Assembly (NCBI RefSeq): GCF_005771425.1
Contig: NZ_VBTZ01000006.1
Span: 94,024 to 158,023 of the forward strand
DNA from: Methylocystis sp. B8
Lineage (GTDB): Bacteria > Pseudomonadota > Alphaproteobacteria > Rhizobiales > Beijerinckiaceae
Length of the DNA stretch: 64,000 nucleotides
Reading direction: 5' to 3'
The notes below the pieces were generated by a model that did not search any database, was not told the origin of the DNA, and saw only the letters and a list, made by a program, of their open reading frames with translations. This document shows, piece after piece, positions 16,891-55,998 of the stretch; within the stretch, counting starts at the first letter, position 1; the number at the start of each line of letters is the position of its first letter. Both the position numbers and the translations under genes were made by a program.

Positions 16891-18880
<1,990 letters not shown>

Positions 18881-41118: not shown

Positions 41119-41165
41119 TGGAGCGGGCGAAGGGATTCGAACCCTCGACCCCAACCTTGGCAAGG
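41119..41165. repeat. Left attachment repeat (tRNA-Gly 3' fragment)
   Basis: 47 bp identical to 55924-55970: CCA end, acceptor 3' strand, T-arm and part of the anticodon arm of tRNA-Gly(GCC), minus-strand sense. Sequence diverges immediately on the element side (A versus T at the next base). Confidence 0.93.
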
Positions 41166-41282
41166 AAAAAAGATAGGGTTTCCGGCCATTACTCAATTTT
41201 TCCTCACTTGACTAGCGCCTTGCGTTTGTTGGCTTTTCCGCTTATTTATTTTTCCCACGATTTACCCGGCTTTCCTTTTGGC

Positions 41283-41316
41283 GGCTTCCGAATGGCTTCC
41301 GAAAGTGGCTTCCGAA
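41283..41316. repeat. Three GGCTTCCGAA repeats, candidate integrase arm sites
   Basis: Exact GGCTTCCGAA copies at 41283, 41294 and 41307 (spacing 11 and 13 bp), just before the integrase start. Similar copies lie inside the right end (55859-55893). This arrangement fits arm-type binding sites of tyrosine integrases. The role is inferred. Confidence 0.65.
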
Positions 41317-41317
41317 G

Positions 41318-42625
41318 GTGTCCTCGCACGTGAAGGTCAGGCTCACCAAACAATTCTGCGACACATGGCGACCCTCAAAAGACGATGACGTCGCATGGGA
41401 CGAAGCGACCGAATGCTTCGGCCTGCGTGCTATCAGGAAAGGCGAAGGCTTCCGCAAGACGTTTGTCGTTCAAAAGAAGGGCGCCGGCAAGAAGACGATC
41501 GGCCCCTATGGGCTCTTGACGCTCGACCAGGGCCGCAAGGCGGCCCGCGAGTTATTGGCGCGCCTCGCGCTCGGCGAAAACCCGATCGCGGACGAGCGGA
41601 AGAGACGCGACGCGCTCACCGTCGCCGAACTCTGCGAGCAATATCTCGACGCCGCCCGCGCTGGGCTCGTCGTGACCAACAAGAAGCGCGTCAAAGCCGA
41701 GTCGACGGTCTCAATCGACGAGGGCAGGGTCGCCCGCCATATCATTCCTCTACTCGGAAAGCTCCCGGCGAATTCACTTGCCGGCCGGGCAGACCTGTTG
41801 CAGCGGTTCTATGACGACGTCGCCGCCGGGAAGACGGCTGGCAAGATCAAGACGAAGACCCGCGGGATGGCCCGCGTGCAGGGCGGGGCGCCGGCCGCCA
41901 AACGGGCCGTTGGCTTGTTCGGCGGTATCTGGACGTGGGCGAGCAAGCGCGGGCTTGTAGAGGGCGCTAACCCCACCCGCGGGGTCGATATGGCCGCCGA
42001 CGCCACGCGCGAACGAATCCTCGCGGCGCATGAACTGGCGAACCTCGGGCAGGCGATGCGAGGGGCCGCCGAGCGCGAGACGATGGCGGCGGCCGCCGTT
42101 CGAATACTTGCTCTAACGGGTATGCGCCGCGAGGAAGCCGTCAGCCTTCGCTGGCGCGAGATAGACGCGGCGACTCAATGCTTGAGGCTTGAGGCGACGA
42201 AGACCGGGCGCTCCATGCGGCCGATCGGAAGGGCGGCGCTCGACTATCTGCAAACGCTGCCGCGCCTTCACGATGAATTCGTGTTCCCGAACCGCGACGG
42301 AACTGGCGCCGCCGATCTCAAGAAACAGATCGCGGCCATCTTTGACGACGCCAAGCTGACAGACGCGCGGTCGCAAACGCTGCGCCGGACCTTCGCAAGC
42401 ATCGCCGCCGATGAAGGCTATGGCGACGCGACCATTGCCGAACTCTTGGGCCATAGCCGCCGGGGCGTGACGCAGCGGAGCTACATCCGCCGCCCCGATG
42501 CTGCGCTTGTCGCCGCTGCCGATCGAGTCGCCGCGCGAATAGCGGCTGCGATGGACGGGCAGGGGGCGGACGTTGTTAGCCTCCCGACGAGGGCGAAGGC
42601 CCATCGAAATGAGCAAGAGCTATAG
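41318..42625 (+). CDS. Tyrosine-type site-specific integrase
   Basis: A 435-residue phage-type integrase with an N-terminal arm-binding domain (GKKTIGPYGLLTLDQGRKAA, typical of the P4-like/DUF4102 group), a core-binding domain (about 100-200) and a C-terminal catalytic domain. Catalytic residues seen: Arg in LTGMRREEAVSLRW, Arg356 in TLRRTFAS, His in IAELLGHSRR and Tyr in TQRSYIRR. The box-II position before LRR, usually His (HxLR), is Gln353. The start is GTG at 41318 (or GTG 41330); no ATG is available. It integrates at tRNA-Gly. Confidence 0.92.
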   Translation: MSSHVKVRLTKQFCDTWRPSKDDDVAWDEATECFGLRAIRKGEGFRKTFVVQKKGAGKKTIGPYGLLTLDQGRKAARELLARLALGENPIADERKRRDALTVAELCEQYLDAARAGLVVTNKKRVKAESTVSIDEGRVARHIIPLLGKLPANSLAGRADLLQRFYDDVAAGKTAGKIKTKTRGMARVQGGAPAAKRAVGLFGGIWTWASKRGLVEGANPTRGVDMAADATRERILAAHELANLGQAMRGAAERETMAAAAVRILALTGMRREEAVSLRWREIDAATQCLRLEATKTGRSMRPIGRAALDYLQTLPRLHDEFVFPNRDGTGAADLKKQIAAIFDDAKLTDARSQTLRRTFASIAADEGYGDATIAELLGHSRRGVTQRSYIRRPDAALVAAADRVAARIAAAMDGQGADVVSLPTRAKAHRNEQEL

Positions 42626-43193
42626 CAGCCTCGCCGAGTGGGCGGCCGCGTTTGCGGCGGCGCAAGATGTGCGTCGCAACGCGTTCGACGCCGCGACGGG
42701 CGGAGCGCCGCGCGTGGTCGACGGCGCAGAGATTGCGCGAGCGGAAGCAGAAGTTCTGCGGTTCAAGATGACGTGGCAACGGAATCGAATGCGAGAAATA
42801 TTCAAGGCCTCGCCGGTCCATCAAGACCAGATGGACGGACTAATGATGCTTGACGACATGCTCGTCACGGCGATGCGACTCGGCGCGCTCGAACTCACGA
42901 ATGATAAGCGAGACAGGATCGAAGCGACACGGAAAGGCCGCGCGGCCGGAAAAAGGCGCGGGGCGCAACTTAGCGCGGAAGCCGAGGGAATGTGGAAGCC
43001 TCACGCACTACAATTGGCGCAGGACGCGCAGCGGAAAGACCCCACGCTGCTTTTGCAGAAAGACCTTGCCGAAACCATCAAGAACGGCTGGAGATTGAAT
43101 ATTCACTGTCCCACGTCGCAGCTCGTAAGAGCCGTCCGCGCATGGCAGCGCGAGGGTCGGCTGTTGAGACGAAAAGGGCGGTCAGCCGGCTGA
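42609..43193 (+). CDS. Hypothetical element protein
   Basis: A 194-residue basic protein of unknown function that overlaps the integrase end by 17 bp. The N-terminal part is helical (SYSSLAEWAAAFAAAQDVRR), the middle carries MDGLMMLDDMLVTAMRLGAL, and the C-terminus is Arg-rich (LVRAVRAWQREGRLLRRKGR), suggesting nucleic-acid contact. No signal peptide or known motif. Such proteins follow integrases in many small Rhizobiales islands. Confidence 0.6.
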   Translation: MSKSYSSLAEWAAAFAAAQDVRRNAFDAATGGAPRVVDGAEIARAEAEVLRFKMTWQRNRMREIFKASPVHQDQMDGLMMLDDMLVTAMRLGALELTNDKRDRIEATRKGRAAGKRRGAQLSAEAEGMWKPHALQLAQDAQRKDPTLLLQKDLAETIKNGWRLNIHCPTSQLVRAVRAWQREGRLLRRKGRSAG

Positions 43194-43274
43194 TCTTCTA
43201 TACTAGGCGGAAAACGTGCGTAATCTGCAAAACCATTCCCGCCAAGAGCGGGCTCGCTCACGCGGAATGGTTAG

Positions 43275-43502
43275 ATGCAAAACCGCAAATTCATGCGCGC
43301 CAAGGATGCCGGCGTCTATCTCAAAGACAAATTCGGCTTTGGCTCCGAAAAATCTCTGAACAAGCTTGCCTGCCTTGGCGGCGGCCCTGAGTTTCATAAG
43401 GCTGGCCCCGCTCGGCTCTACACGCCCGAAGCGCTCGACGAATGGGCGATGAGCAAGATCGGCGCGGCGCAGAAAAGCACGTCAGACACGGCGGCGGCGT
43501 GA
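43275..43502 (+). CDS. AlpA/excisionase-like HTH DNA-binding protein
   Basis: A 75-residue protein with the MerR-type winged-helix pattern of AlpA and excisionases: FMRAKDAGVYLKDKFGFGSE followed by KSLNKLACLGGGPEFHKAGP and RLYTPEALDEWAMSKIG. In P4-like elements such proteins bind the att region or activate integrase expression. It is the likely recombination directionality factor here. Confidence 0.75.
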   Translation: MQNRKFMRAKDAGVYLKDKFGFGSEKSLNKLACLGGGPEFHKAGPARLYTPEALDEWAMSKIGAAQKSTSDTAAA

Positions 43503-43505
43503 GAC

Positions 43506-43772
43506 ATGCGCCGCTCAAACGAAAGCCCGCCTCCTGGCGAGAGGCGGGCTCGGAAAATTGATCGATCTGGCAAGGCGATCGCTTCCGAGAAAACCAAATC
43601 CGCTCCCGAAAATCAAGGGAAATCACTCCCGCCAAAGGCGACGCTCGCGCGCAGATGGCCGCGCCTTCGCGTCAACAGATTCAATTTCAAATGGGTCGAC
43701 GACGCGACCGGCGAGCGGGGCGATGACGTCGAGTCGTTGCGCGCCTTCCTTGAGAGGAAGGCGACTTCATGA
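43506..43772 (+). CDS. Small hypothetical element protein
   Basis: An 88-residue, Arg/Lys/Pro-rich N-terminus followed by a compact C-terminal patch (FNFKWVDDATGERGDDVESL). Unknown function. The stop overlaps the next start (ATGA), which supports real translation. Confidence 0.5.
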   Translation: MRRSNESPPPGERRARKIDRSGKAIASEKTKSAPENQGKSLPPKATLARRWPRLRVNRFNFKWVDDATGERGDDVESLRAFLERKATS

Positions 43773-44224
43773 CGCTCACCCCAGCCATCGCGAACAAACT
43801 TGCGGCGATTCTTCCGCGGCTTGCGAGCAACCACGATGGCGAAGTCGTCGCGACGGCAAGAGCGATCGATCGCACACTCAAGAGCGTCGGCGCAGACTGG
43901 CACGATCTCACCGAAGCTTTCACGCGCGGCGCGGCGGTCATCATCATTCGCGACAGGAAGGCGGCGAAGCCGGAACCGAAGCCGTCGTCACGCAAGCCGC
44001 CACCGCGATCGGCGCCGTCGTGGGACTCGCTTTCCCTCGCCGGTCGCATCGCATGGCTCACGATCTGCGCGGAGAAGGCGTGCCTTTCGCCATGGGAGCA
44101 ATCATTCGCCGAGAGCATCTTGGTGTCGCTCCGCGACGATCCATACAGGCCGCTCTCGCCGAAACAGAAGGGCATCTGTGACCGGATAATCCGAAGCGCA
44201 TTCAACTTCGGGTTTCGGCCATGA
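43769..44224 (+). CDS. Hypothetical phage-like protein
   Basis: A 151-residue protein with an N-terminal helical segment (NKLAAILPRLASNHDGEVVA followed by TARAIDRTLKSVGADWHDL), a Pro/Lys-rich linker and a C-terminal half (SLAGRIAWLTICAEKACLSP, LSPKQKGICDRIIRSAF). This two-part organisation recurs in Rhizobiales prophage regions next to replication genes. Function unknown. Start/stop overlaps on both sides place it in one operon. Confidence 0.6.
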   Translation: MTLTPAIANKLAAILPRLASNHDGEVVATARAIDRTLKSVGADWHDLTEAFTRGAAVIIIRDRKAAKPEPKPSSRKPPPRSAPSWDSLSLAGRIAWLTICAEKACLSPWEQSFAESILVSLRDDPYRPLSPKQKGICDRIIRSAFNFGFRP

Positions 44225-45462
44225 CGGAATCGAGCCGCAGGGCCAAACGCACAATCAGTCGCCGTCAGCGGGCTTCGCTCACCCTCTCGCAGCTATACCG
44301 CGTTGCCGCGGCGCAGAGCGCCGCTGGTGAGCTTTTGGACCCAAGGCCATGGCTCAAGGTCCTGGCCAACGTTCTCTCATCGGCACCCGCCGGACGCATC
44401 GGAAAGCGCAGCGGGCGAGACGCTCCAGACTACTGGGAGCTTTCCTATAACAGCTTGCTTGTCGCCGCTCAGCGCTGCGGCATTGAGGCTCCGGCGGAAG
44501 AGATAGAGGCGCAAGTCGCCGATACGTCCGAATGGCGCGCGCGTGAATCGCGGCGCATCGGCCGCTCTCACTTCATGGCCATGAGCGCCGAAAAGATCGG
44601 CGAACTAATCGGCATGACCGAAGAGATTTGGCGCGAGGCCAAAGCATGGAATCTCGCGCCCTACGGCAGTTCGAAGGAGTCGCTGCAACAGGCAAGGAAG
44701 GAGCGCGACAAGATGCGAAAGCAGGACAAGCGCCGCGCGGAAGGCGCGCGACCGCAAGGCGAGAGTTTGTCCAAGCGCAGGCCATGGGAAGCTGAAGGCG
44801 TCTCTCGCCGGACATGGTATCGCCGCATCGCGGCGGCCCAGAATGGAGCGCCGGACGATCCCAATGATGGCGGTGGCACAACTTCGTCCGCGACAAATAA
44901 GTTGGCACAACTTCGTCCGGCACAACTTCGTCCGCGACAAATAAGTGAGCGTGGCACAACTTCGTCCGGGACAAATATTCCCTACGGGCGTTGCCCTCGG
45001 GAATTCCCCAACGACCATGTCCCGGGTTGCGGCGAGGCCGAGGCGGCGCAAGCGCGCCGACCGGCCGGACCCGGCTGCAATGACCGCGGAACGGCCAACG
45101 GGATTGCAAACGACGCGGCGCCCGGCGAAGGCGACAGCGCGGCGGCGCTTGAGCGCCGACTGACAGGCGACTGTGACCAATCATTTTCTGACGCGAAGGA
45201 TGAAACGCTTCGCAGGGATGGCGGCGAGAGCCGGCATGATGGCCAATCGTCCGGCGCTGCATCCGGTTATGCGGCAGGCGACTTTGAGGACGCCATAGCG
45301 CGGTATCAGCGCATCAAAGGCGAGCCCGCGCCGGCCTATCAGATGCAGCCCGGCGGCCTTGCCGTGCGCGCCTTGGCGCTGGTGCGTCGTCCCGACCAGA
45401 TGACCATGCAGCCGATACGTCGTGCGCGCCTTGAGCGACCGCTTGAGGAGATGGCCGTATGA
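44221..45462 (+). CDS. Putative element replication protein with internal iterons
   Basis: 413 residues. The N-terminal 190 residues look folded and DNA-binding-like (SRRQRASLTLSQLYRVAAAQ, MSAEKIGELIGMTEEIWREA, then Lys/Arg-rich RKERDKMRKQDKRRAEGARP and a WEAEGVSRRTWYRRIAA helix-turn-helix-like stretch). The middle is a low-complexity segment encoded by four direct repeats (44874-44977). The C-terminus has DFEDAIARYQRIKGEP. No standard replicase motif is present. A role in replication initiation is inferred from the operon and the internal repeats, as in lambda gene O. Confidence 0.5.
   Translation: MTESSRRAKRTISRRQRASLTLSQLYRVAAAQSAAGELLDPRPWLKVLANVLSSAPAGRIGKRSGRDAPDYWELSYNSLLVAAQRCGIEAPAEEIEAQVADTSEWRARESRRIGRSHFMAMSAEKIGELIGMTEEIWREAKAWNLAPYGSSKESLQQARKERDKMRKQDKRRAEGARPQGESLSKRRPWEAEGVSRRTWYRRIAAAQNGAPDDPNDGGGTTSSATNKLAQLRPAQLRPRQISERGTTSSGTNIPYGRCPREFPNDHVPGCGEAEAAQARRPAGPGCNDRGTANGIANDAAPGEGDSAAALERRLTGDCDQSFSDAKDETLRRDGGESRHDGQSSGAASGYAAGDFEDAIARYQRIKGEPAPAYQMQPGGLAVRALALVRRPDQMTMQPIRRARLERPLEEMAV
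44874..44977 (+). repeat. Iteron-like direct repeats inside a gene
   Basis: Four copies of GGCACAACTTCGTCCG begin at 44875, 44904, 44919 and 44953. Copies 1 and 3 are followed by CGACAAATAAG and copy 4 by GGACAAATA. The periods are 29, 15 and 34 bp. The AT-richer GACAAATA units alternate with the repeats. This looks like an intragenic replication origin or a recently expanded repeat. Confidence 0.8.
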
Positions 45463-45493: not shown

Positions 45494-45775
45494 ATGGACG
45501 GCCTTGCTGACGCGGCGCAGACCGTCGACGCTCTTTATGAGGCTAGCCCCATAAGGCGCCGCTCGACGAAATCGGAAGTCGGGGCCCGGCGGGACGCGCT
45601 TCTCGCCATCGTCTCCGCCGGCAAGCCGATGACGGTCCGCCTGCGCGCGATCGTCGAAAGCGCAATCACAATGCACTTGCCGCACGATCAATTCGACGTC
45701 CTGAAGGCGGCCGAGGCGAGCGAGCGTGAGCACTTCATGAAAATTGCGGAAATGCTTGGCGGGAGTCCGTCATGA
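45494..45775 (+). CDS. Small hypothetical element protein
   Basis: 93 residues, predicted helical (KSEVGARRDALLAIVSAGKP, VRLRAIVESAITMHLPHDQF). Unknown function. The ATG at 45494 is chosen because it gives no overlap with the preceding gene; its stop overlaps the next start by 4 bp. Confidence 0.5.
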   Translation: MDGLADAAQTVDALYEASPIRRRSTKSEVGARRDALLAIVSAGKPMTVRLRAIVESAITMHLPHDQFDVLKAAEASEREHFMKIAEMLGGSPS

Positions 45776-46113
45776 CGCCAGCCGCCGCCATCCGCGACGA
45801 GGCCGCAAGACTTCGATTGCAGGCCGATCGACTCGACGCGCTCGCGGACGCTCTCGACGGCGCGCCGATCGCGCCGGCGGAGCCGACTTGGATCCCTACA
45901 GGGCGAGCGCAACAGATCCTGCGCGTTAACAGCGAGTCGACCATTTACAGAATGATCGAAAGGCACCCGGAAATCGCCCGTCGCGCAGCCAACGGGCGCA
46001 ACTGGCAGATCGACAAAGCGAAGCTCCTCGCGCTCCTCGATCGCGGCCGCGGCGAAAACGGCGAACGCAGCGGCGAAAGCGGCGAATGCCTTCTGCTCGA
46101 ATCACCCCGATAA
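45772..46113 (+). CDS. Putative HTH DNA-binding protein
   Basis: 113 residues. An N-terminal coiled-coil (AAIRDEAARLRLQADRLDAL) is followed by a short DNA-binding-like domain (WIPTGRAQQILRVNSESTIY, RMIERHPEIARRAANGRNWQ) with the pattern of excisionase/MerR-type winged helices. The tail has a GER/GES repeat. Probably a regulator of the element; no assigned family. Confidence 0.55.
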   Translation: MTPAAAIRDEAARLRLQADRLDALADALDGAPIAPAEPTWIPTGRAQQILRVNSESTIYRMIERHPEIARRAANGRNWQIDKAKLLALLDRGRGENGERSGESGECLLLESPR

Positions 46114-46138: not shown

Positions 46139-47146
46139 ATGGCTTTAAGTTTTAACGCGAACGGTCCGGTCGCCGTCGCCAGATCGCTTTCGCCCGAAGA
46201 GTGGAAAGCGCAGGCGAGCTTCGCGCTCGACAAGGACGCCGCCGACAAATTGCCCGCTGGCGCCCGTGCGAAGTTTCTGGCGCTCCGCAACGAATTGGCC
46301 GAAGCGCGCGCGGTCCTCACCGTTCCGCGCGAGAAGCTCGCCGAGGCGCGCGAGAAGCGCGACAAGGTCAGGCTCCGTCTCGAAAGCCTACGCCGTAACG
46401 GAATGCATGAGGGGCACCCGGCTTTCGACGCAGAGAAAGAAGTTTTCGACCGCCTTAGCGCGGAAGTGAAGCTGGCGAGCGATGAATACTCACGCCGCTC
46501 CGCCGCGATCGGTCCGATTGGCGAGCAGATCAGGCGACTCGAAGCCTATACCGCCTCGCTTCCTCTTTCCGTCGGCATGGCTCCTGCGGTCGCCGTGAAG
46601 CTCCCCAAGGGCGCGTCCATCGTCGCCGCGATCGTACAAGCGCGGGAGAAAATCCAAGAGCACCGCGACGCCATTCAAGCCGCCATCGACGCGCCATGCA
46701 CGAGCGCCGATGTGAAAAAGCGGATGCGCGCGCAGATCGAGGAGCTCGCAGAATCTGGTCGGCCGAGCGTTCAGGGCGCGGTCGATTTTGGCGAGCGCAT
46801 CAAGTTTCCGACGACGCCCGCTGAGGTTTTCGTCGAAAGCAAGCGCGGACACGCCGACGTTTCCGATGCGATCGGCCTCGTCGCTTGGTTGTTCAAGGAT
46901 CAGCTTATCGCCGCGCTCGACGGCGCGCTCGCCGACGTCGCCGACGATGCGAGCGCATTGACCGCAGACGAGCGCCGCAGGCGCGTTGCGGACGCTAAGA
47001 AGCAATTGCTCGAAGCCGAAAGGATCGAGGAGGCGCTGATCGAACAGGCTCGCCAAAGCGGTCTGACCATTGGCCGCCGGCATGACGCCGACCCGCGCGC
47101 GATCTTGCAGCTTTCCGACTCCGCGCCGGAGGTGCGTGACGATTGA
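46139..47146 (+). CDS. Hypothetical coiled-coil protein
   Basis: 335 residues, rich in Ala/Glu/Lys/Arg heptads (LRNELAEARAVLTVPREKLA, EAREKRDKVRLRLESLRRNG, then a second helical block EKIQEHRDAIQAAIDA and ERRRRVADAKKQLLEAERIE). No membrane segment. It is the longest element protein without a recognisable motif. Its place before two scaffold-like small proteins hints at a structural or assembly role, which is speculation. Confidence 0.55.
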   Translation: MALSFNANGPVAVARSLSPEEWKAQASFALDKDAADKLPAGARAKFLALRNELAEARAVLTVPREKLAEAREKRDKVRLRLESLRRNGMHEGHPAFDAEKEVFDRLSAEVKLASDEYSRRSAAIGPIGEQIRRLEAYTASLPLSVGMAPAVAVKLPKGASIVAAIVQAREKIQEHRDAIQAAIDAPCTSADVKKRMRAQIEELAESGRPSVQGAVDFGERIKFPTTPAEVFVESKRGHADVSDAIGLVAWLFKDQLIAALDGALADVADDASALTADERRRRVADAKKQLLEAERIEEALIEQARQSGLTIGRRHDADPRAILQLSDSAPEVRDD

Positions 47147-47245: not shown

Positions 47246-47557
47246 ATGCAACTTTACGACGAGAAAGACCTCGAAAAAGCTTTTGAGGACGGCCGCCGCG
47301 AAGCCGCCTCCTCTTCCGGGGATATCGACGCCGCCTATGCCCGCGGAGTCGCTGCCGAGCGCGAGCGGATCAAAGGCGTGCTGACGAGCTCAGTCGCCGA
47401 GAGCGATCCCCGCACCGCCATCATGCTTGTGGTCAGCGGCGTCGACGCCACGCCCGAGAACATCGCCGCCGTCAATGAAGCGCGGCGCATCGCGGCCGAT
47501 GCAAGCTGGGCAGAGATCAACGCCAAGCGGACGGCATCGCCCGGTCGCTCGTTTTAA
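47246..47557 (+). CDS. Small protein resembling phage protease/scaffold tail (1)
   Basis: 103 residues. The core ARGVAAERERIKGVLTSSVA followed by ESDPRTAIMLVVSGVDATPE and NIAAVNEA matches the spacing of the C-terminal segment of phage S49/ClpP-type prohead proteases (ERxRIxxIL, then xAEGRxxLAxxLA, then SxExAxxLL). There is no protease domain. AAGGAGG lies 7 bp before the ATG. Confidence 0.55.
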   Translation: MQLYDEKDLEKAFEDGRREAASSSGDIDAAYARGVAAERERIKGVLTSSVAESDPRTAIMLVVSGVDATPENIAAVNEARRIAADASWAEINAKRTASPGRSF

Positions 47558-47571: not shown

Positions 47572-47901
47572 ATGTCGACCTACGACAACGATCCGCACTT
47601 CGTCGCCTCTCTCGGCGCCGCACTCACCAAAGAGCGAGCCGACGGCCACAACAGCGCTTATCTCGAAGACTTCGCCGCCGCCTTCACGAAGTCCTACGCC
47701 GAGGGGCGCATCGCATACCGACTGCGCTGCAAAGCGATCATTGAGTCGCCGGAAGCGAAAGGCAGAGAGGTGCAGGCGAAGCACCTCGCCCTCGAAACCG
47801 ACATGACTGCCGAGCAGGCGATCGCGCTCCTGCGCACCATGGCCTCCTCGTCGTCCATCGGCGCGCGTGCTGCCGAGACGATCATCTCTCGACCGCTTTG
47901 A
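47572..47901 (+). CDS. Small protein resembling phage protease/scaffold tail (2)
   Basis: 109 residues, 14 bp after its neighbour, with the same motif in clearer form: RLRCKAIIESPEAKGREVQA followed by KHLALETDMTAEQAIALLRT. This again matches the scaffold-like C-terminus of prohead proteases. The N-terminus (FVASLGAALTKERADGHNSA) is unlike the neighbour. GAGGAGAAA precedes the ATG. Confidence 0.55.
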   Translation: MSTYDNDPHFVASLGAALTKERADGHNSAYLEDFAAAFTKSYAEGRIAYRLRCKAIIESPEAKGREVQAKHLALETDMTAEQAIALLRTMASSSSIGARAAETIISRPL

Positions 47902-48757: not shown

Positions 48758-49111
48758 ATGAGCGAATCTGTGGATGGTTTCTTCACTGCATTTTTGACCG
48801 GAAAGGCAGGAAGCGGCTTTTCGATGTTCGTCATCCGCAAGGGAAAGCTTGTGGGATCCGATATGCTTGGTGCTGTTTACGACGGACGCATCGAACAAGA
48901 CGGCGCGGACGCCTACAAGGTCATATTAGGCGTTCGACTGCCGCCCAATCTTCCTTTGATTCAAGGCGGGATGAGCGGTCCTTTTGGTGACACTTATGAG
49001 ATGAGTTTCAATCTGCCGCACGAGTTTACTTCTCAGAGCTTCGTGCGGATTGACACCAAGCACGGACCGCTCAATGCGAAGATCGTGAAAATTCGAGCCT
49101 TAGATGATTGA
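48758..49111 (+). CDS. GrlR-like small beta-barrel protein
   Basis: 117 residues. The N-terminal pattern FFTAFLTGKAGSGFSMFVIR followed by KGKLVGSDMLGAVYDGRIEQ resembles the GrlR fold (x-F-x-G-x-G-V-V-V-L-x-D-G-x-I-x-G-G-D). Related proteins are small eight-stranded barrels of mostly unknown role. Codon use is AT-richer than the left half of the element. The stop overlaps the next start by 8 bp, so the two genes form a unit. The family call is tentative. Confidence 0.5.
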   Translation: MSESVDGFFTAFLTGKAGSGFSMFVIRKGKLVGSDMLGAVYDGRIEQDGADAYKVILGVRLPPNLPLIQGGMSGPFGDTYEMSFNLPHEFTSQSFVRIDTKHGPLNAKIVKIRALDD

Positions 49112-49676
49112 TATTGACCCGCAAGCGCTGAGCGCCGTCGCCGCAACTGCGTCAGCGCTTGCTGCTGCTCTTTCGGTTTACGCTACGTGGCGTGGGCCTC
49201 AAGCCGCTGCAACGCTTGCTGAAATGATGCGTCGAGACTCTGAGAAAAGCCAAGAGCGCCAGCGCCAAAAGTTCATCATCTTTACAACTCTGATGCAGGA
49301 GAGATCAGCCGTCTATACCGAGAATGCGGTGCGCGCGCTCAACTTGATTGATGTTGTATTTCATGATTCCAAGCCGGTCCGGGAGGCATGGGCAGAGTTA
49401 TACCTTGCGTTCAATTCGCAGCAAGTTGCGCACGGACAAGGTTTCGATGAAAAATTACGAAGGCTGTTAGCGACGATGGCCAATGACATTGGTCTTGGCG
49501 ATAAATTCGGTGCCACTGACTTGAGCAGAGTTTATATCCCAAACGCGTTGCAACAAGAGCGTATCATCCGCGACATGGAACGACAGCAAGCCCTCGCTCG
49601 ACTTCAGGCAAACATGCCGCCGTCCGCCAACACAGCGCCCCCGGTAACCAATCTATTCCCTCCCGCCCCAGAGTAA
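49104..49676 (+). CDS. DUF6680-like membrane-anchored protein
   Basis: 190 residues. One N-terminal hydrophobic helix (about 8-27) is followed by a cytoplasmic helical domain. The stretch RQKFIIFTTLMQERSAVYTE followed by NAVRALNLIDVVFHDSKPVR and EAWAELYLAF fits the DUF6680 pattern (FxTLMxxR, VxALNxIDVxF, VxxAW). Function unknown. Overlap with the GrlR-like gene suggests joint expression. Confidence 0.6.
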   Translation: MIDIDPQALSAVAATASALAAALSVYATWRGPQAAATLAEMMRRDSEKSQERQRQKFIIFTTLMQERSAVYTENAVRALNLIDVVFHDSKPVREAWAELYLAFNSQQVAHGQGFDEKLRRLLATMANDIGLGDKFGATDLSRVYIPNALQQERIIRDMERQQALARLQANMPPSANTAPPVTNLFPPAPE

Positions 49677-50063: not shown

Positions 50064-50506
50064 CGCAATAAGCCGCTCGCGCGTTATCTTGCAAGCTCCG
50101 CCGGTATGAAATTACGCAATATGACCGGGTCCGAAACTGACCCAGTCTTTGGCGGCCTGCCGCCATTGTTAGACGGATGCGCGCAACTCCGCGAGCCGTC
50201 TTTCGGCGATGGCGGCAACGAGGCGGAACTGCGTGACGTCGTCAGCGCCCGGTGCCTAGTCGGCGGCGTTGTTCATTCGCTCTAGAACGGAATTTAGCGT
50301 GTCATTCCCGAGTCTGATGCTCACCAGAATCTTACGAGATCGCGACGTGAGCGATCTACGACTGCCCAGCCTTTCCGAGAAGTCATCCACTCAGCAAATC
50401 ATTGACCATCAATTTTTATTGGATAGCATCCTGTTTCCCTAAGACGCATCAGCATATCTCAGTTCAACTTTCCAAGTGATCTCTTGTAATGATTCGGGAG
50501 GGAAAT
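50064..50506. other. Region with decayed minus-strand reading frames
   Basis: About 440 bp without an intact gene. On the minus strand near 50160-50270 a stretch reads DDVTQFRLVAAIAERRLAEL, in frame with an ATG but interrupted by a TAG six codons after it, so it looks like a broken small gene. The right part (50290-50500) is AT-rich and probably holds the promoter of the next gene. Confidence 0.45.
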
Positions 50507-51661
50507 ATGGGCGATCTATCCTTGGAGGATTTCAACACTGCAACAGCGTCAACGGTATTGGCGGGTCGCAGTGAAGCTGACGGCTCCTTCAATGGCGACG
50601 TCGTCTTAGCAGTCGAAGCTCAGACATTGGCTGATCACGCAGTTGCCGGCATCAGAACAGTCGGACAGGGAGCGCCCGCACTGCTCGGGCTTGGACAGGG
50701 AGCACCCGCGCTGCTCGGGCTTTCTGATAATGCGGGAGTCGTCGGCGTCGGAACCGCTGGCGTTATTGGTCGGACGGATAACAAACGTTCAAGACTTCCC
50801 CCGACATTCGACAATGTAGGTGTGCTTGGCAGCTCATTCGGGGACCAATTAGCGGCAGGAATGATCGGAGAAAGCGACGTCGGATATGGGGTATATGCGG
50901 TAACGACAGCGGGCACTGGGGTCCGAGGCGACTCCGACAACGTTGGCGTTATGGGTTCTGGCCTCAACAGATTTGGGGTCGTAGGGCAATCGTTAGGATC
51001 GGGTGTCTTTGGACTTGGCGGCACAGTTGGAGTGAGAGGTCAGGCGGATAGGCCAGCTTGTAACGGCGTGTGGGGCAGCAGTGATAATGGAATTGGCGTT
51101 TTAGGCACCTCCCTCAAGAACGTTGGAGTTTACGGACAGTGCGGCGCACGGCCACGCACTCCGGGCGTTGCCGCGGGGTTTTTCGTGGGCCCTGTAATCG
51201 TAGTTGGCAGCTTCACCGCTTACGGGGCAAAGAGTGCCGCCGTGCCGTGCGACGATGGCACGTATCGTCTGTTATACGCGGTAGAAAGTCCTGAAAGCTG
51301 GTTCGAGGACTTCGGCGATGCCCAGCTTGAATCTGGCAAGGCGAGGGTGGACTTGGACCCTAAATTCGCTTCCTGCATCAAAGCCAAAGGGTATCATGTC
51401 TTTCTGACTGCCTGCAGTGACTGCAATGGTCTCTATGTCTCACGAAGAGATAAGACAGGCTTTGAAGTGCGTGAGAGCCAACGCGGAAAAAGCAACGCGC
51501 GCTTTTCATTCCGGATCGTTGGCAAGCGGAAGGATATTTCCGCTGAAAGGTTCGCTTCGGCACCATCCTCAAACGATCTCCTGAAAGCAGTCGAACCGTC
51601 ATTGAAGTGTGAACGCTTTAAGATGCCAGAACAACCGAAGCGCCGGAAAAAGCGGCTCTGA
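50507..51661 (+). CDS. GVxG-repeat beta-helix-like protein
   Basis: 384 residues. A central repetitive region (about 60-215) has the G(V/I)xGxS...GVGVxGxS rhythm of beta-helical or fibre-like proteins. A compact C-terminal domain (AVPCDDGTYRLLYAVESPES, WFEDFGDAQLESGKARVDLD, then YHVFLTACSDCNGLYVSRRD and GFEVRE) is widespread in bacterial hypothetical proteins with such repeats. A ten-residue unit GQGAPALLGL is duplicated in tandem (50667-50728). The ATG at 50507 has GGGAGGG upstream. No signal peptide. Possible roles: adhesin, tail-fibre-like or structural; not determinable. Confidence 0.7.
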   Translation: MGDLSLEDFNTATASTVLAGRSEADGSFNGDVVLAVEAQTLADHAVAGIRTVGQGAPALLGLGQGAPALLGLSDNAGVVGVGTAGVIGRTDNKRSRLPPTFDNVGVLGSSFGDQLAAGMIGESDVGYGVYAVTTAGTGVRGDSDNVGVMGSGLNRFGVVGQSLGSGVFGLGGTVGVRGQADRPACNGVWGSSDNGIGVLGTSLKNVGVYGQCGARPRTPGVAAGFFVGPVIVVGSFTAYGAKSAAVPCDDGTYRLLYAVESPESWFEDFGDAQLESGKARVDLDPKFASCIKAKGYHVFLTACSDCNGLYVSRRDKTGFEVRESQRGKSNARFSFRIVGKRKDISAERFASAPSSNDLLKAVEPSLKCERFKMPEQPKRRKKRL

Positions 51662-51748: not shown

Positions 51749-52042
51749 ATGCGCGTAGGCGGAGTTCGAGCGGCGGGGGAAACCGTATCGAGATGGGAGA
51801 GTGAGGCCCAGCCGATGGGCGCTTCCGCGGAGAAAGTCCTGCGCCTCGTCGTCTGCGAAGAACTCAAAGAGCAGGCGCCGGGCGTCACATATAATGCGGC
51901 TATGCTCGCAAGCCTGGAAATCACTGACCCGTGGCGCGATGATCCAAACTATGAAGCGCCGCCGATCGAATTCATTTTCGGTCGCCTAAAAGAGCAATCC
52001 GGCAAGATTGTCGAGGCGTGGGATACCAGACTCGCCGCGTGA
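51749..52042 (+). pseudogene. Truncated MqsA/YgiT-type HTH regulator
   Basis: 97 codons. ETVSRWESEAQPMGASAEKV followed by LRLVVCEELKEQ matches the recognition helix and tail of MqsA-type antitoxin/HTH proteins (TVSRWExGxxPxxxxAxxLLRL). The N-terminal helix-turn-helix and zinc part that should precede it is missing or scrambled (MRVGGVRAAG). No toxin gene is adjacent. Probably a remnant, though a short active form cannot be excluded. Confidence 0.5.
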
Positions 52043-52108: not shown

Positions 52109-52774
52109 ATGTGCGGCCGGTTTACGCAGCATCTGTCTTGGGAAGAGCTCCAGCGCCTCGCCGATCTGATCGGCCAGCCGCGCAATCTCGCGCCGCGCTA
52201 TAACATCGCCCCCACCACGCAGATTGAGGTCATTCGGCCTACGGCAGCCGGCAACGAGCTCGTTCCGATGCGCTGGGGACTTGCGCCGTCTTGGTGGAAA
52301 AAGCCGCTGGGCGCGCTTCCTGCAACGTTCAACGCCCGCGCCGAGACGGTCGCCGAGAAGCCGATGTTCCGATCGGCGTTCAAGTCGCGACGCTGCGTCA
52401 TCCCGGCGTCCGGGTTTTACGAATGGACCGGCAAGCCCGGCGCGAAGACGCCGCATTATTTCTCATCGCCTGACGGCCGGCTGCTTGCGTTGGCCGCTCT
52501 ATGGGAAAGCTGGCGTGATCCCGAGAGCGACGCGAAGGTCGACTCGGCGACCATCATCGTCGGACCGGCGAACGAATGGATGCAGCGCTTTCACAATCGA
52601 ATGCCGGTCATTCTCGACTGGCGCGACGTCAGCGCATGGATGACGGGCGACGATCCCGGCACGCTGTTGCGGCCTGCGCTGGAAGACGCCTTGCAAGAGT
52701 GGGTTGTTTCGTCGCGCGTCAACCGCTCGGGCGTCGCCGACGATGATCCTGCGCTTATCCTGCCGGTCGCGTGA
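52109..52774 (+). CDS. SOS-response-associated peptidase (SRAP/YedK/HMCES)
   Basis: 221 residues. SRAP proteins crosslink through Cys2 to abasic sites in single-stranded DNA and protect them. All key residues are present: Cys2 (MCGRFTQ), Asn75 (FNARAET), Glu105 (SGFYEW) and His162 (RFHNRMPVIL). Length is normal. It is coupled by 4 bp to a small downstream gene. Carriage by a mobile element fits the need to protect ssDNA. A broken paralogue lies at 37980-38116. Confidence 0.93.
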   Translation: MCGRFTQHLSWEELQRLADLIGQPRNLAPRYNIAPTTQIEVIRPTAAGNELVPMRWGLAPSWWKKPLGALPATFNARAETVAEKPMFRSAFKSRRCVIPASGFYEWTGKPGAKTPHYFSSPDGRLLALAALWESWRDPESDAKVDSATIIVGPANEWMQRFHNRMPVILDWRDVSAWMTGDDPGTLLRPALEDALQEWVVSSRVNRSGVADDDPALILPVA

Positions 52775-52989
52775 CGGCGACAGCGCCTTACGCCCTGCCG
52801 TTGCGCGTGCGCAAGATCGGCGAGTCCTACGTCGTCGCCGACCTAAACGGCATTGCGCTCGCCTATGTCTATTTCGAAGACGAGCCGACCCGGCGTGGAA
52901 TCGCCAAACGGCTCACTTCGGATGACGCCAAGGCGGTTGCGCAGACGATCGCTCGGGCGCTGACGGAGGACGCGAAGAATGGCTCATAG
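52771..52989 (+). CDS. Small hypothetical protein coupled to SRAP
   Basis: 72 residues, GTG start overlapping the SRAP stop (GTGA). Sequence: LPLRVRKIGESYVVADLNGI, then ALAYVYFEDEPTRRGIAKRL, a small alpha/beta-looking protein. Function unknown. Confidence 0.6.
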   Translation: MTATAPYALPLRVRKIGESYVVADLNGIALAYVYFEDEPTRRGIAKRLTSDDAKAVAQTIARALTEDAKNGS

Positions 52990-53034: not shown

Positions 53035-53286
53035 TTATCGCTCGTGAGTTTTTGTTGGACTGTTTGGGCAGCCAGGTCCAAGAGTCATGCTCCCGCACCA
53101 CCTGCATTTGTTCCCGCTGCCATGACGGTGTCGACCCGTTGGACTGTTTGGGCAGCCCTGACCGTAGGCCATTGAGTTGCAATACTCGCAATGTCGAGAA
53201 TCTGTTGCATGTTGATGGCGCTTGTTCGGGCTATTCGGACACCCAGAGCCAAAAGCGATTGACCCGCAATAGACACACTTACTCAT
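53035..53286 (-). CDS. Triple CCCH zinc-finger mini-protein
   Basis: 83 residues made almost entirely of three tandem repeats with C-x2-C-x8-C-x7-H spacing: C4-C7-C16-H24, C33-C36-C45-H53 and C61-C64-C73-H81. Each repeat reads C-x-[YW]-C-[GN]-S-[IM]-[AT]-[FYL]-G-x-G-C-P-N-S-P. The spacing strongly implies one zinc per repeat. AAGGG lies before the ATG at 53286. It is convergent to the SRAP pair. I know of no named function for it; nucleic-acid or protein binding is the obvious guess. Confidence 0.72.
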   Translation of the reverse strand: MSKCVYCGSIAFGSGCPNSPNKRHQHATDSRHCEYCNSMAYGQGCPNSPTGRHRHGSGNKCRWCGSMTLGPGCPNSPTKTHER

Positions 53287-53419
53287 TGTTTTGCCCTTTG
53301 CTCCGTCACGATTGCCGCTCTAACTGCATCGCGCGCTAGCGAAGAACGTTGTCCGCGACGTGATCGTATCGGATTGAACGCCGCCTAAGCTAGCTCGCCC
53401 GCCTTCCCGACGAAGCCAA

Positions 53420-53453
53420 AACGCCCCCCGCTTACATCCGGCGTCGGGGCGTT
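53420..53453 (-). terminator. Stem-loop, possible terminator for minus-strand small ORF
   Basis: AACGCCCC (53420-53427) pairs exactly with GGGGCGTT (53446-53453); in minus sense TTTTGG overlaps and follows the stem. It lies about 40 bp after the stop of the 55-codon ORF at 53491-53658. Confidence 0.4.
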
Positions 53454-53490
53454 AAGTGCGACGGCGGGGGGCCGTCGGCTTGTTGTGAAT

Positions 53491-53658
53491 CTACGTGCGC
53501 GACCGCACGAATGCAATCGCGCCTGGCCGTTTGCTCGCCCGCAAAAGCGACTCCGCAAGGGCGAGAAAACGGCAGGCGTTAGCGCCCTCGGCGGCCCGCA
53601 GTAGGCCCTCCGCAAGCACCGCCCAAGCGAGGCGGCGGAGGCCGTCGTAACTCGTCAT
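53491..53658 (-). CDS. Small helical protein, 55 residues
   Basis: The minus-strand frame reads MTSYDGLRRLAWAVLAEGLL, then RAAEGANACRFLALAESLLR and ASKRPGAIAFVRSRT. It is a plausible amphipathic helical mini-protein. Its ATG overlaps (ATGA) the stop of an upstream frame ending ARKYGFEVVDLSGEPLA (53655-53885), the usual sign of translational coupling. Function unknown. Confidence 0.45.
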   Translation of the reverse strand: MTSYDGLRRLAWAVLAEGLLRAAEGANACRFLALAESLLRASKRPGAIAFVRSRT

Positions 53659-53885
53659 GCCAGCGGCTCCCCGCTAAGGTCCACAACCTCAAACCCATAC
53701 TTGCGCGCGCGGAGGCGAGCATGGAACGTCGCCGTCACCCCAGGCAGTTTATCGAGAGATCTGAGAGCGAGGAATATCTGCATAAAGCGGCTTGGTCTGT
53801 AGTTAACCGGCAGCTCCGACGAGCGGAAAAGAAACGTCGGGGTGCTCTCTATGACGACCTTGTAGCGATGGTCTTCGCGTTCCAC
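53655..53885 (-). pseudogene. Upstream partner of the 55-residue ORF, probably truncated
   Basis: Only the C-terminal part (FHARLRARKYGFEVVDLSGE) looks like protein. The rest lies antisense to the HEPN-like gene and appears to be chance sequence. The end of this frame is coupled by ATGA to the next small ORF. It may be the stump of a phage gene cut by arrival of the AT-richer segment that starts near 53730. Confidence 0.35.
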
Positions 53886-54344
53886 AGCATTGAAGGCTAT
53901 TTGAATTTCGTCGGAGAGAAGATCGCTCCGGACCTATGGAAAAACGAAAAACACGAATTCGGAAACGACCTCTACAAGAAACTCAAAGCGATATGTGAGC
54001 GCTGTGAGATCGACCCCCCAGAGAAGTCGAAGTGTCCGTACTCCACGATCGAGGCACTGAAGGATTTGCGCAATAAAATGACGCATCCGAAAACACACAG
54101 GGCAAAAGAGGAAACCAAATTCACTGATGGTCAAGAACCGGAAATATTTTCCCCGACGCACCTAGAAACACTCGTCAGTCACGAAAAAGCGCTTCTAGCG
54201 CGCGATGATGTGAGAAAAATTGCAGATCTCATCCACCCCGCCGCCAGAGGTCGATTTCCTGACTCCGGACTGGGCTCAGATCCATTCGATGGAATCACAT
54301 CGATGCGTAATTCAAGCACGAGTCTGCTTAGCGACGATCCCTGA
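53721..54344 (+). CDS. HEPN-like protein (candidate RNase)
   Basis: 207 residues. The predicted four-helix core (about 15-125) contains DDLVAMVFAFHSIEGYLNFV and then IEALKDLRNKMTHPKTH, where R117-x4-H122 fits the HEPN motif (RX4-6H). HEPN domains are RNases in toxin-antitoxin, abortive-infection and CRISPR systems, and also occur in non-catalytic proteins. A GGAGG site 5 bp before the ATG supports the start. Codons are AT-richer than neighbours, suggesting recent transfer. No antitoxin-like gene (MNT/nucleotidyltransferase) is adjacent. Confidence 0.55.
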   Translation: MERRRHPRQFIERSESEEYLHKAAWSVVNRQLRRAEKKRRGALYDDLVAMVFAFHSIEGYLNFVGEKIAPDLWKNEKHEFGNDLYKKLKAICERCEIDPPEKSKCPYSTIEALKDLRNKMTHPKTHRAKEETKFTDGQEPEIFSPTHLETLVSHEKALLARDDVRKIADLIHPAARGRFPDSGLGSDPFDGITSMRNSSTSLLSDDP

Positions 54345-54425
54345 AACTGATAGTTAACCGGATGCCCCAGGCGCGAAGCTGAAAAAAGGCCCGCGGCCAT
54401 GAACCGAGGGCAAGGCGGCGAGACG

Positions 54426-54527
54426 TCAGTGCTGAAGCAGCAGCATGGCGCCGCCCAAAATCACGGCGACCACGACGGACGCGATCACTGCGTTAGCAAT
54501 GGGAGGGGCGATCGGAGCGCGGGTCAT
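54426..54527 (-). CDS. Very small single-TM protein, 33 residues
   Basis: Minus-strand frame MTRAPIAPPIANAVIASVVV, then AVILGGAMLLLQH. One clear transmembrane helix with a short N-terminal Pro-rich part. The ribosome-binding site is weak. Small hydrophobic proteins of this kind occur in phages and type I toxins; no antisense RNA was identified. Confidence 0.4.
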   Translation of the reverse strand: MTRAPIAPPIANAVIASVVVAVILGGAMLLLQH

Positions 54528-54799
54528 ACGAAAATCTCTAAACGCAAGTGGACCAAACGTCGATTAGGCACGTCGCCGCAAGCGTCCAGACGGAAGTGAT
54601 CCTCATCCCGGAGAATGGCGGCGAACCGTGGGCCGCGCCATTCATCCGGCTCGCCTCGTAATGGGGCCTCATCCCGCTGGACAGCATCCCTTCTTATGCT
54701 AACCTTCGGCCGCGCCGAAATGACGCACGTCACCACTTATGGGTGATAGAAAAATGTCTGAAGACAAAGACTTGTGCGAGAAACAAAAGGGAGGCGGTC

Positions 54800-54964
54800 A
54801 TGGCTAAAGAACTCGAAATCACATCGAACGTCTACATCTTCGCTGGAATCGGCGCTGTTGTTATCGGCGCCCTTGCGAGTTTTGCTCTTGGCGGCTTTGC
54901 CAACACACTCGCCGCTGCTGTCGTCGGCGGCCTTGCGGGCGGCTGCCTCGGCCTCTTCTTCTAA
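54800..54964 (+). CDS. Small Gly-rich membrane protein, 54 residues
   Basis: Begins MAKELEITSNVYIFAGIGAV and continues with two Gly/Ala-rich hydrophobic helices (VVIGALASFALGGF, LAAAVVGGLAGGCLGLFF). Strong GGGAGGCGG site 4-6 bp before the ATG. It resembles glycine-zipper or holin-like membrane proteins, with no decisive motif. Confidence 0.6.
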   Translation: MAKELEITSNVYIFAGIGAVVIGALASFALGGFANTLAAAVVGGLAGGCLGLFF

Positions 54965-55137
54965 TCAATACGAGCCGACGCAGGGCTTGGCTCGGCGTCT
55001 GCTAGGGAGCGCCGTCAGCGGCAAAGCACCGCGATTGACCTAGGTGTGTTCGCGCCTAGTTGAGCCGCAGGCCGTTGGCCCTATGGGCTGGCACCGCCCT
55101 TGAACTTCGAAGCCCGGCCGGAAACGACCGGGCTTTT
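54965..55137 (+). ncRNA. Candidate structured RNA ending in an intrinsic terminator
   Basis: A 170-bp GC-rich stretch without a gene contains several stem-loops: CGAGCC/GGCTCG (54971-54976 with 54989-54994), CTAGGTG/CGCCTAG (55040-55046 with 55053-55059), and a final terminator. It may simply be the 3' UTR of the membrane-protein gene. No known RNA family was recognised. Confidence 0.3.
55110..55137 (+). terminator. Intrinsic terminator
   Basis: AGCCCGG (55111-55117) pairs with CCGGGCT (55128-55134) across a 10-nt loop, followed by TTTTCGTTT. Plus-strand orientation, downstream of the small membrane protein gene. Confidence 0.75.
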
Positions 55138-55163
55138 CGTTTGGCGCTGGCGCTCTCAGCGCG

Positions 55164-55595
55164 AAGATCGTCACGTATGAAGGCGACGACGAAGCGGCGC
55201 TCGCTTTTGTCGTCAGCAAGAATCTAGCGCGGCGTCATCTCAACGAAGATCAGCGCGCGGCCGCTGCGGCAGAGATCGCGAATATCATGAATGGCGGTGA
55301 TCGTCGTTCCGATCAGTCCGCAATATTGCGGGCTGAAAAAGTTTCTACGCCTCAAGCCGCCAAGATGATGAACGTGGCGCAGCGCCGCGTCGAAGCGGCG
55401 GCCAAAGTGAAGCGCAAGGCGCCGGAGGTTTTCCAGCGCGTCAAAGACGGGAAGCTGGCGACGCACGTACCCGACAAGGCTACAGCGAAGGCGCTAAGCT
55501 CAGGGGTCAATCGCGGTCGAGCTTTTTTTCCAACGCGTTCAATAGGTCGTGGACCTCAGCTGGCAGGGGCTCGCCGACGATCTTGGCAAGCTTAA
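55164..55595 (+). pseudogene. ParB-like nuclease-domain gene, N-terminally truncated
   Basis: In frame from 55164 the sequence reads IVTYEGDDEAALAFVVSKNL, then ARRHLNEDQRAAAAAEIANI, MNGGDRRSDQSAILRAEKVS and TPQAAKMMNVAQRRVEAAAK. This is the second half of the ParB/RepB-like N-terminal domain family found on phages and plasmids (LAFVxSxNLxRRHLxExQRA, GGDRRSDQxA). The DNA-contacting N-terminal part is missing; the frame starts just after a terminator. The 3' end runs out after KALSSG. Confidence 0.65.
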
Positions 55596-55695
55596 ATTGC
55601 AGCTCTGTGCCGACATTTTCCAGCGCAGCGGCAGACTGTTCTTGAACCTCGCGGTCGAGAGCGCTCCGCCATTCGTTACATTCTTGTTTTTTCAT
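55507..55695 (-). CDS. Small protein with NepR-like C-terminus
   Basis: 62 residues: ALENVGTELQFKLAKIVGEP followed by LPAEVHDLLNALEKKLDRD. The EPLPxExxxLLxxLE end resembles NepR anti-sigma factors and the orphan at 34843. The ribosome-binding site is weak, and the gene lies partly antisense to the ParB remnant. The resemblance is short and could be chance. Confidence 0.4.
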   Translation of the reverse strand: MKKQECNEWRSALDREVQEQSAAALENVGTELQFKLAKIVGEPLPAEVHDLLNALEKKLDRD

Positions 55696-55858
55696 GACAC
55701 CCCGTGGTCGTCGGGGCTTTTATTCTCAACGATCGGACGGAGGCAAGCTGAGCCGCAGGGATAGACCGCACTTGACGACGCGCTCGGCGCGAAGTCGGCG
55801 ATGGTCGGAGAGGCAGGGTAGCGCATCGCGGACAGGATAGCGGCGGCCGGCTTTCGCC

Positions 55859-55893
55859 GGCTTCCGATTCGCTTCCGAAGCCTTCCGGCTTCC
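55859..55893. repeat. Right-end GGCTTCC repeats, candidate integrase arm sites
   Basis: GGCTTCCGAT at 55859, CGCTTCCGAA at 55870 and GGCTTCC at 55887, in the same orientation as the GGCTTCCGAA trio beside the integrase. They lie 31-65 bp inside the right attachment repeat. Confidence 0.55.
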
Positions 55894-55923
55894 ATTGATT
55901 TTTTAGCTAAGTATTTGATTTTT

Positions 55924-55998
55924 TGGAGCGGGCGAAGGGATTCGAACCCTCGACCCCAACCTTGGCAAGGTTGTGCTCTACCCCTGAGCTACACCCGC
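55924..55998 (-). tRNA. tRNA-Gly (GCC), integration target
   Basis: Minus-strand cloverleaf of 75 nt: acceptor GCGGGTG/CGCCCGC (one G-U pair), D-arm AGCTCAGGGGTAGAGC, anticodon stem AACCTTGCCAAGGTT with GCC, T-arm GAGGGTTCGAATCCCTTC and an encoded CCA. Its 3' 47 nt (55924-55970) is the right attachment repeat, so the element restored an intact tRNA when it inserted. Confidence 0.95.

Follow-up and report, generated by a model that had tools for sequence, protein, structure and literature searches.

The subject of this analysis is a 64,000-nucleotide stretch of contig NZ_VBTZ01000006.1 from Methylocystis sp. B8 (the window; all positions count from its first letter) and, within it, a block of about 14.8 kb at a tRNA-Gly gene. 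Judged from its sequence and its relatives, the block is probably an integrated phage satellite, one of a group with members in Methylocystaceae and, more sparsely, in further genera of the order. The sequence-only reading of this DNA had suggested a phage satellite or an uncharacterised type of island, and that suggestion is supported by empty sites in related genomes, ends with the look of integrase substrates, a recurring gene set and the homology of a small scaffold-like protein, g109. A narrower proposal, which we hold tentatively and at slightly less than even confidence, is that these elements form an undescribed satellite family in which the capsid is hijacked by a free-standing lambda-type Nu3 scaffold and a dedicated partner, g335, with the relatives forming a series. 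Among the matches listed in searches of open-licence literature, no title or beginning of an abstract describes satellites of Methylocystaceae or their order, which is weak evidence of absence. Genomes and loci are referred to by G and L numbers.

Insertion site and ends of the element

An exact 47-bp direct repeat occurs at 41119-41165 and 55924-55970, with a distance of 14,805 bp from start to start. The right copy makes up the 3'-terminal 47 nt of a tRNA-Gly(GCC) gene (called at 55924-55998, minus strand, anticodon gcc), and the left copy lies near the integrase gene, exactly as the sequence-only reading had described this perfect repeat. The features of the two ends, including the attachment (att) copies, are as follows.

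41119..41165, no strand: orphan att copy at the integrase end (exact 47-bp repeat)
41283..41315, plus strand: putative integrase arm-type sites, GGCTTCCGA at 41283, 41294 and 41307 (motif positions)
41318..42625, plus strand: tyrosine integrase, start at 41318 or 41330 (Pfam; 62% identical to the integrase of L050, which uses the same tRNA-Gly)
43275..43502, plus strand: AlpA-like protein of 75 amino acids (aa), likely an excisionase or regulator (label from position and resemblance)
55859..55879, plus strand: putative arm-type sites at the tRNA end, GGCTTCCGA at 55859 and GCTTCCGA at 55871 (motif positions)
55924..55970, no strand: att copy within tRNA-Gly(GCC), the tRNA gene itself being 55924-55998 on the minus strand (tRNA call and repeat)

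The insertion site was surveyed at 35 loci or regions, some of which overlap (L046/L050 and L045/L054). The 3' side of the tRNA gene is unoccupied at 23 of the 35 loci (22 genomes); ispE, tRNA-Gly and a cupin gene follow one another unbroken at 11 loci (10 genomes), and at 12 loci (12 genomes) ispE lies 60 bp or less from the tRNA 3' end and the cupin gene is unmatched. The closest empty site, L044 in genome G027, is uninterrupted, has flanks 94% and 97% identical to those of the window and keeps the same distance from ispE to the repeat. An empty tRNA-Gly site in relatives had been put forward as a check on the element, and relatives do have it. The remaining 12 rows of the survey include the element itself (L037), a different 16.5-kb element in the same tRNA-Gly site of G031 (L050, whose right end is L046), a site in G028 that is divided among contigs and probably occupied (L045, L054 and L055), a 0.5-kb gap at L049, and five loci at which neither flank gene was found (L020, L021, L024, L033 and L035). 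A repeat equal to the tRNA 3' end, an integrase and an empty site in relatives, the marks of a tRNA-borne integrative element, are thus all present, and by these marks the element is inserted at the 3' end of tRNA-Gly with the tRNA left intact.

The integrase gene starts about 150-165 bp inside the left att copy. Its product matches Pfam Phage_integrase (1.8e-18) and an arm-binding domain (3.6e-8), is 62% and 57% identical to the integrases of L050 and L078, and keeps the two arginines, the second histidine and the tyrosine that we take to be expected of the family. Where the first histidine is expected, the integrases of the window and L050 have Q and the other five that were aligned have H. 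All four copies of GGCTTCCGA in the element lie near its ends, three inward of the left att copy and one inward of the right; five of the six copies of GCTTCCGA do so as well, paired inward of both, and the sixth is at 43581. L050 and L078 have paired GCTTCCCC at both ends in the same layout, as read by eye. Such end repeats have the layout expected of integrase arm-type sites and an attP, with a motif that varies with the integrase. The AlpA-type label that the 75-aa protein had received is kept for its position and its 59-63% identity to the product of the gene at the same place in L050, L077 and L078; searches of Pfam and PHROG gave no match to it.

The scaffold-like protein g109 and its neighbour g335

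The central part of the element contains a group of four genes, all on the plus strand.

45772..46113, plus strand: 113-aa helix-turn-helix (HTH) protein (Pfam HTH_17, 5.9e-6, 0.1 bit under the cut-off)
46139..47146, plus strand: g335, 335-aa all-helical protein, the family marker (surveys, structure model)
47246..47557, plus strand: 103-aa protein, possibly a diverged second scaffold-like protein (weak; PHROG 0.02-0.08)
47572..47901, plus strand: g109, 109-aa stand-alone phage-scaffold-like protein (PHROG, phage records, profile A2, pairwise comparison)

The protein g109 matches the C-terminal part of phage head proteases, and 15 phage records match the window in the g109 segment only. Profile A2, which gave 45 loci in viral contigs, finds a 555-aa frame in G037 (1.1e-25, positions 4-118 of 122); this frame is the S49 head protease of L150, a prophage with large terminase (TerL), portal and major head protein, and G037 carries both this prophage and a relative of the satellite, L017. 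The end domain of the L150 protease begins at an internal Met341 whose ATG is preceded by AAAGGA, and the satellite scaffold-like genes match this domain almost from its first residue (L078, 44% over 117 aa; L017, 37% over 120; window, 42% over 88). Window g109 is also 60% identical over 55 aa to a second prophage fragment, L151, and L152 has its scaffold in a 154-aa gene of its own, placed behind the protease. The scaffold Nu3 of lambda is an internal product of the protease gene. On these alignments, g109 is a homologue of the scaffold region at the end of an S49 head protease. The available text of PMC5644958 states that CpmB of SaPI1 shares the capsid-binding end of the helper scaffold and competes with it for capsid protein, and by analogy we infer a similar competition for g109. 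The earlier label of scaffold-like mini-proteins is supported for g109 by the head-protease homology; the 103-aa protein has an hhalign match to A2 (E 1.4e-4, probability 53) and a best BLAST E of 9.5, and is a weak, possible second scaffold.

The structure model of g335 is all-helical (pLDDT 82.3). The surveys for this protein cover genome samples of the order, genus and class: a single-protein query detected it in 9 of 297 genomes of the order, and a profile in 7 of 39 genomes of the genus, with five copies in G012, and in 3 of 385 genomes across the class at 1e-6, the own genome included. An alignment of g335 matched two viral contigs. In L087 (IMGVR_UViG_3300048592_001403), a g335 homologue lies downstream of portal-like and head-protease-like genes (by eye) and of a large recombinase, possibly as an element embedded in a phage.

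The order HTH gene, g335, scaffold-like gene seen in the window is the same in L076-L078 and L154. An HTH protein directly before g335 is also present in L076-L079, L154, L158 and L159, with a likeness to that of the window that consists of position and phrog_66, none of them matching the window protein by BLAST. The 113-aa HTH protein was considered as a small terminase and rejected, because L077, L078 and L079 possess a Nu1-like small terminase in addition to the HTH gene of this slot. Downstream of g335, L075, L077 and L078 carry a scaffold-like gene, a small terminase and a tape measure, L017 a scaffold-like gene and a small terminase, L076 and L154 a scaffold-like gene, L079 and L159 a small terminase, and L084, L085 and L160 a head protease.

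Putative replication initiator and iterons

Upstream of this group lies a gene whose product may start replication of the element.

44221..45462, plus strand: 413-aa putative replication initiator (homologues and PDB profile match)
44875..44980, plus strand: iteron array inside the initiator gene, putative origin (repeat search, codon shuffles)

The initiator has matches in 5 of 39 genomes of the genus, the own genome included. Profile A3, made from five initiator homologues, matches PDB chain 3vw4 ('Rep') at E 6e-4 over 41 positions; we take this entry to be the domain with which the ColE2 initiator binds DNA. Repeats of 15-16 bp follow immediately after the Rep-matched stretch of the gene. 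The longest intragenic repeat is 28 nt, a length reached by none of 100 codon shuffles (maximum 13 nt), and the intragenic repeats that the earlier reading called iterons are therefore real. Repeats at the same position of the gene exceed all 100 shuffles in L015 and L018 and are similarly spaced (15 and 33 bp, beside 15 and 34 in the window), and the initiator gene of L017 has an imperfect 15-bp repeat by eye. The natural reading of such iterons is a self-encoded origin as in lambda O.

The Rep-like match and the iterons could also belong to an integrative or mobilisable plasmid-like element with a ColE2- or lambda-O-like initiator, spread by conjugation or transformation and holding its phage-like genes by chance, and this copy has no recognised phage structural gene: 21 predicted proteins compared with PHROGs and 20 with Pfam gave no capsid, portal, TerL or tail-tube gene. 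Such an origin is considered very improbable, since no relaxase or conjugation gene is matched by the 20 element proteins scanned in Pfam, and since in relatives the genes held in common occur in linkage with a small terminase, a tape measure, a head protease and capsid genes. The earlier statements that the element has no capsid and no conjugation genes agree with these scans.

Related elements

Elements in tRNA genes of Methylocystaceae, and of other genera in the order, share parts of the gene set (integrase, AlpA-like protein, putative initiator with iterons, g335 and g109); most measure 11-16.5 kb. Among 17 other loci, nine (L016, L050, L077, L078, L082, L083, L085, L086 and L154) have repeats of 44-62 bp in tRNA genes and span 11.2-16.5 kb; a further set of three loci adds L159 and L160, with repeats and lengths in the same ranges, and L158, which has no repeat. 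All repeat-bounded relatives carry g335 except L016, which shares the initiator and a 151-aa gene, and L050, which shares the integrase and AlpA-like gene. L017 unites integrase, AlpA-like gene, initiator, g335 and g109. A scan of genome contigs with profile A4 gave one locus.

The relatives differ in their packaging, head and tail genes. A small terminase is present in L017, L050, L078, L159 and L160 by profile and in L075, L077 and L079 by DNA identity to L078, and a tape-measure gene in L050 and L078, and by identity in L075 and L077. The head protease is profile-confirmed in L085, L088 and L160, and L160 has a major head protein. TerL is found in L016 by profile and in L082 and L019 by similarity, and of these L082 has g335. 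The earlier claim that the element has no terminase is therefore right for this copy and does not extend to the group, in which many relatives have a Nu1-like small terminase and few a large one. Terminase or tape-measure remnants were not found in the window by tblastn at 1e-3.

Three cases illustrate this range. L160 (positions 7065-19803, genome G010) is a tRNA-Gly-borne element of 12.7 kb in which g335 is joined by a head protease, a major head protein and a small terminase; its g335 match carries one in-frame TGA, and portal and large terminase are not evident among the four of its proteins that were scanned. L050 in G031 is 16.5 kb long, with replication genes, a small terminase, a 695-aa tape-measure gene and no capsid gene among its scanned proteins. 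G012 carries five elements (L075-L079) at different places that share g335 (82-90% DNA identity to L078) and a 372-aa gene (97.7-99.9%); small terminase and g109 are each present in four of them and the tape measure in three, and the integrase gene of L078 has no DNA match in the other four. Module swapping of this kind around a constant payload fits active mobile elements better than decaying prophages.

A decayed lambda-type prophage, from which the head and tail genes would be gone and a stub of the scaffold left, could explain why g109 is homologous to the C-terminus of a phage head protease, why a 390-aa protein of the element has a tail-family match, and why g335 of at least one relative (G010) has an inner stop. 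We regard this origin as highly unlikely. Overlapping small gene sets recur across differing integrases, tRNA sites and replication genes, so that independent decay is not readily their source; g335 is unmatched in 50,697 phage records at 0.01; g109 is a complete small gene with GAGGAG upstream; and colinear remnants of one full phage were not found.

As part of the tentative proposal of a new family, the elements may be arranged in a series that runs from scaffold only (window, L076), through the addition of small terminase and tape measure (L075, L077, L078), to a whole head protease instead (L085, L088) and to protease with major capsid protein (L160). If true, this would be a natural series of satellites taking over head and tail genes.

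Proposed life cycle and points that weigh against it

Under the satellite reading, growth of a lambda-headed phage would lead the AlpA-like protein and the integrase to excise the element, and the initiator would fire replication from the iterons within its own gene, as lambda O does. The protein g109 would be a free form of the helper's protease-linked (Nu3-type) scaffold, and together with g335 it would join the helper scaffold or compete with it, making the capsid protein of the helper form shells suited to a small genome. Helper portal, terminase and tail would complete the particle. This copy would need a site accepted by the helper terminase, as P4 does, because it has no small terminase. 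The remaining genes would be cargo.

Several results weigh against this reading. This copy is without the Nu1-like small terminase and the tape measure of its relatives, and may be impaired by that. The satellite scaffold proteins end about 40 residues before the prophage scaffold C-terminus, a shortfall that may affect binding to the capsid. For g335 there is no significant match by sequence, nor by fold in the viral and PDB libraries (E 0.001), and window g335 and initiator, as single queries, found nothing related among viral contigs. Neither Pfam nor the PDB fold search gave a match to the initiator (model pLDDT 62.8), its Rep match spans only 41 positions, and among six initiator homologues tested, exact repeats are not above chance in L016, L017 and L019. 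Long repeats are missing at 8 of the 17 other loci: those of L079 and L084 are 15 and 14 bp, L076, L081 and L153 have none, and L017, L075 and L080 have no tRNA in the stretch. Finally, the own genome has no second A2 match and no phrog_15-type TerL, other TerL types not having been searched, so that a helper of the L150 kind would come from outside. As to these profiles, phrog_15 also matches 4 of 14 control genomes, and phrog_53 (head protease) matches 39 of 39 genus genomes and 14 of 14 controls, because cellular peptidases match too; only the five matches below 1e-70 were counted as proteases of phages or elements.

Other genes, cargo and neighbouring remnants

The genes around and behind the modules described above are listed here; those from 48758 onward are taken as cargo.

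42609..43193, plus strand: 194-aa protein (no Pfam, PHROG or PADLOC match)
43506..43772, plus strand: 88-aa protein with no assigned function (open reading frame (ORF), Pfam and PHROG scans)
43769..44224, plus strand: 151-aa protein with a homologue in L016 (35%, 3e-16)
45494..45775, plus strand: 93-aa protein, 117 aa if started at 45422 (ORF, gene caller)
48758..49111, plus strand: 117-aa protein, 95 aa if started at 48824 (ORF, gene caller)
49104..49676, plus strand: DUF6680 protein (6.8e-22)
50489..51661, plus strand: 390-aa repetitive protein, C-terminal match to phrog_6616, a phage tail family (4.3e-14; omitted by the gene caller)
51749..52042, plus strand: 97-aa protein, 75 aa if started at 51815 (ORF, gene caller)
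52109..52774, plus strand: SRAP protein (1e-64)
52771..52989, plus strand: 72-aa protein (ORF, gene caller)
53035..53286, minus strand: 83-aa cysteine-rich repeat ORF (repeat search, ORF; omitted by the gene caller)
53721..54344, plus strand: 207-aa possibly HEPN-like protein (weak, best E 0.07)
54800..54964, plus strand: 54-aa hydrophobic glycine-rich protein (gene caller)

The SRAP label given earlier is certain at 1e-64; the HEPN-like label has a match behind it, a weak one with a best E of 0.07. In 2-kb windows, the cargo half has a lower G+C content (0.55-0.60 against 0.61-0.65). Ten proteins, nine of them from the cargo half, gave no match to a known defence system in PADLOC at 0.01. The segment 55068-55463 of the window is a remnant with similarity to a ParB-like protein of 238 aa in L087 (31% over 137 aa, 5e-12; ParB label by eye).

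The cargo half bears on whether the element could be a former satellite that has lost its mobility and is kept for its cargo, the packaging and tail genes after g109 having been replaced by genes of host benefit or defence. The lower G+C content, the ParB-like remnant and the lack of a small terminase or tape measure after g109, where L075, L077 and L078 have them, speak for such a history. It is nevertheless judged unlikely, as the genes for integrase, AlpA-like protein, initiator, g335 and g109 keep open frames and stand in order together with the att repeats and arm-type sites, a similarly reduced gene set occurs in L076 of G012, and none of the 10 scanned proteins matches PADLOC.

Outside the element, a 37-bp direct repeat of a tRNA-Thr gene occurs at 37307-37343 and 39240-39276 of the window, 1.9 kb apart. 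It encloses a minus-strand ORF at 37976-38278 with an SRAP-like start by eye, resembling the SRAP protein of the element, and is probably the scar of a second, decayed element. The same tRNA-Thr holds the element L016 in G019. Elsewhere in the own genome (L157, G000:C26:16749-19703), another integrase is followed by an AlpA-like gene, apparently in a separate island.

Comparison with known satellites

Phage-inducible chromosomal islands (PICIs) are recognised by an integrase with an AlpA-like gene, a size of about 15 kb and a primase-type replication gene, and SaPI1 and the classical PICIs are att-bounded islands of about 15 kb. P4-like satellites are recognised by the P4 primase-helicase, Sid and Psu. 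The earlier reading had proposed a comparison with satellite families. The element has the integrase and size of a PICI; its profile matches do not fit the definitions of cf-PICIs, PICMIs or P4. Compared with PICIs, the AlpA-like gene is recognised by its likeness to those of L050 and L078, and neither a primase nor Sid was matched among the scanned element proteins in Pfam and PHROGs. Like SaPI1, the window element is att-bounded, about 15 kb long and equipped with a separately encoded scaffold-like protein, comparable to CpmB as described in the available text of PMC5644958, and its relatives have a small terminase. It differs from SaPI1 in initiator and host, in the likeness of g109 to the scaffold region of an S49 head protease, and in having no small terminase in this copy.

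According to the available part of PMC10690885, cf-PICIs bring genes of their own for the whole of capsid formation and packaging (major capsid protein, protease, portal, TerS and TerL) and are widespread across Bacteria. L160 approaches them with its head protease, major head protein and small terminase, whereas the window element has no capsid gene match. The PICMI model, as given in the accessible text of PMC10803314, requires int, AlpA, a DUF3987/DUF5906 primase and a fis site, and genes for capsid remodelling are absent from PICMIs; the window element shares the integrase and AlpA-like gene and differs in its tRNA-Gly site, its lack of a primase match and its scaffold-like gene. P4 uses the helper terminase directly (PMC10690885, available part), and the window element would do likewise; its scanned proteins have no match to the primase-helicase, Sid or Psu. 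The core genes of PLE include a tape measure and a tail chaperone. A 2026 paper reported tape-measure genes in PLE and gave them as predicted for some cf-PICIs (PMC12987554, available part). Set beside PLE of Vibrio cholerae by description, L050, L078 and, by identity, L075 and L077 are alike in having a tape-measure gene, and the window element differs in having no tape-measure match.

The named satellites in the literature searched, as far as its accessible text goes, have Vibrio, Staphylococcus, Escherichia, Streptococcus and Streptomyces as hosts, and the g335/scaffold group sits in methanotroph-family Alphaproteobacteria. It adds tape-measure-bearing elements at a time when tail manipulation by satellites has only recently been reported (PMC12987554, available part). 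The group would also link a minimal set of capsid-hijacking genes to a specific type of helper, of which the prophage L150 is an example, and it predicts competition between the scaffolds of satellite and helper.

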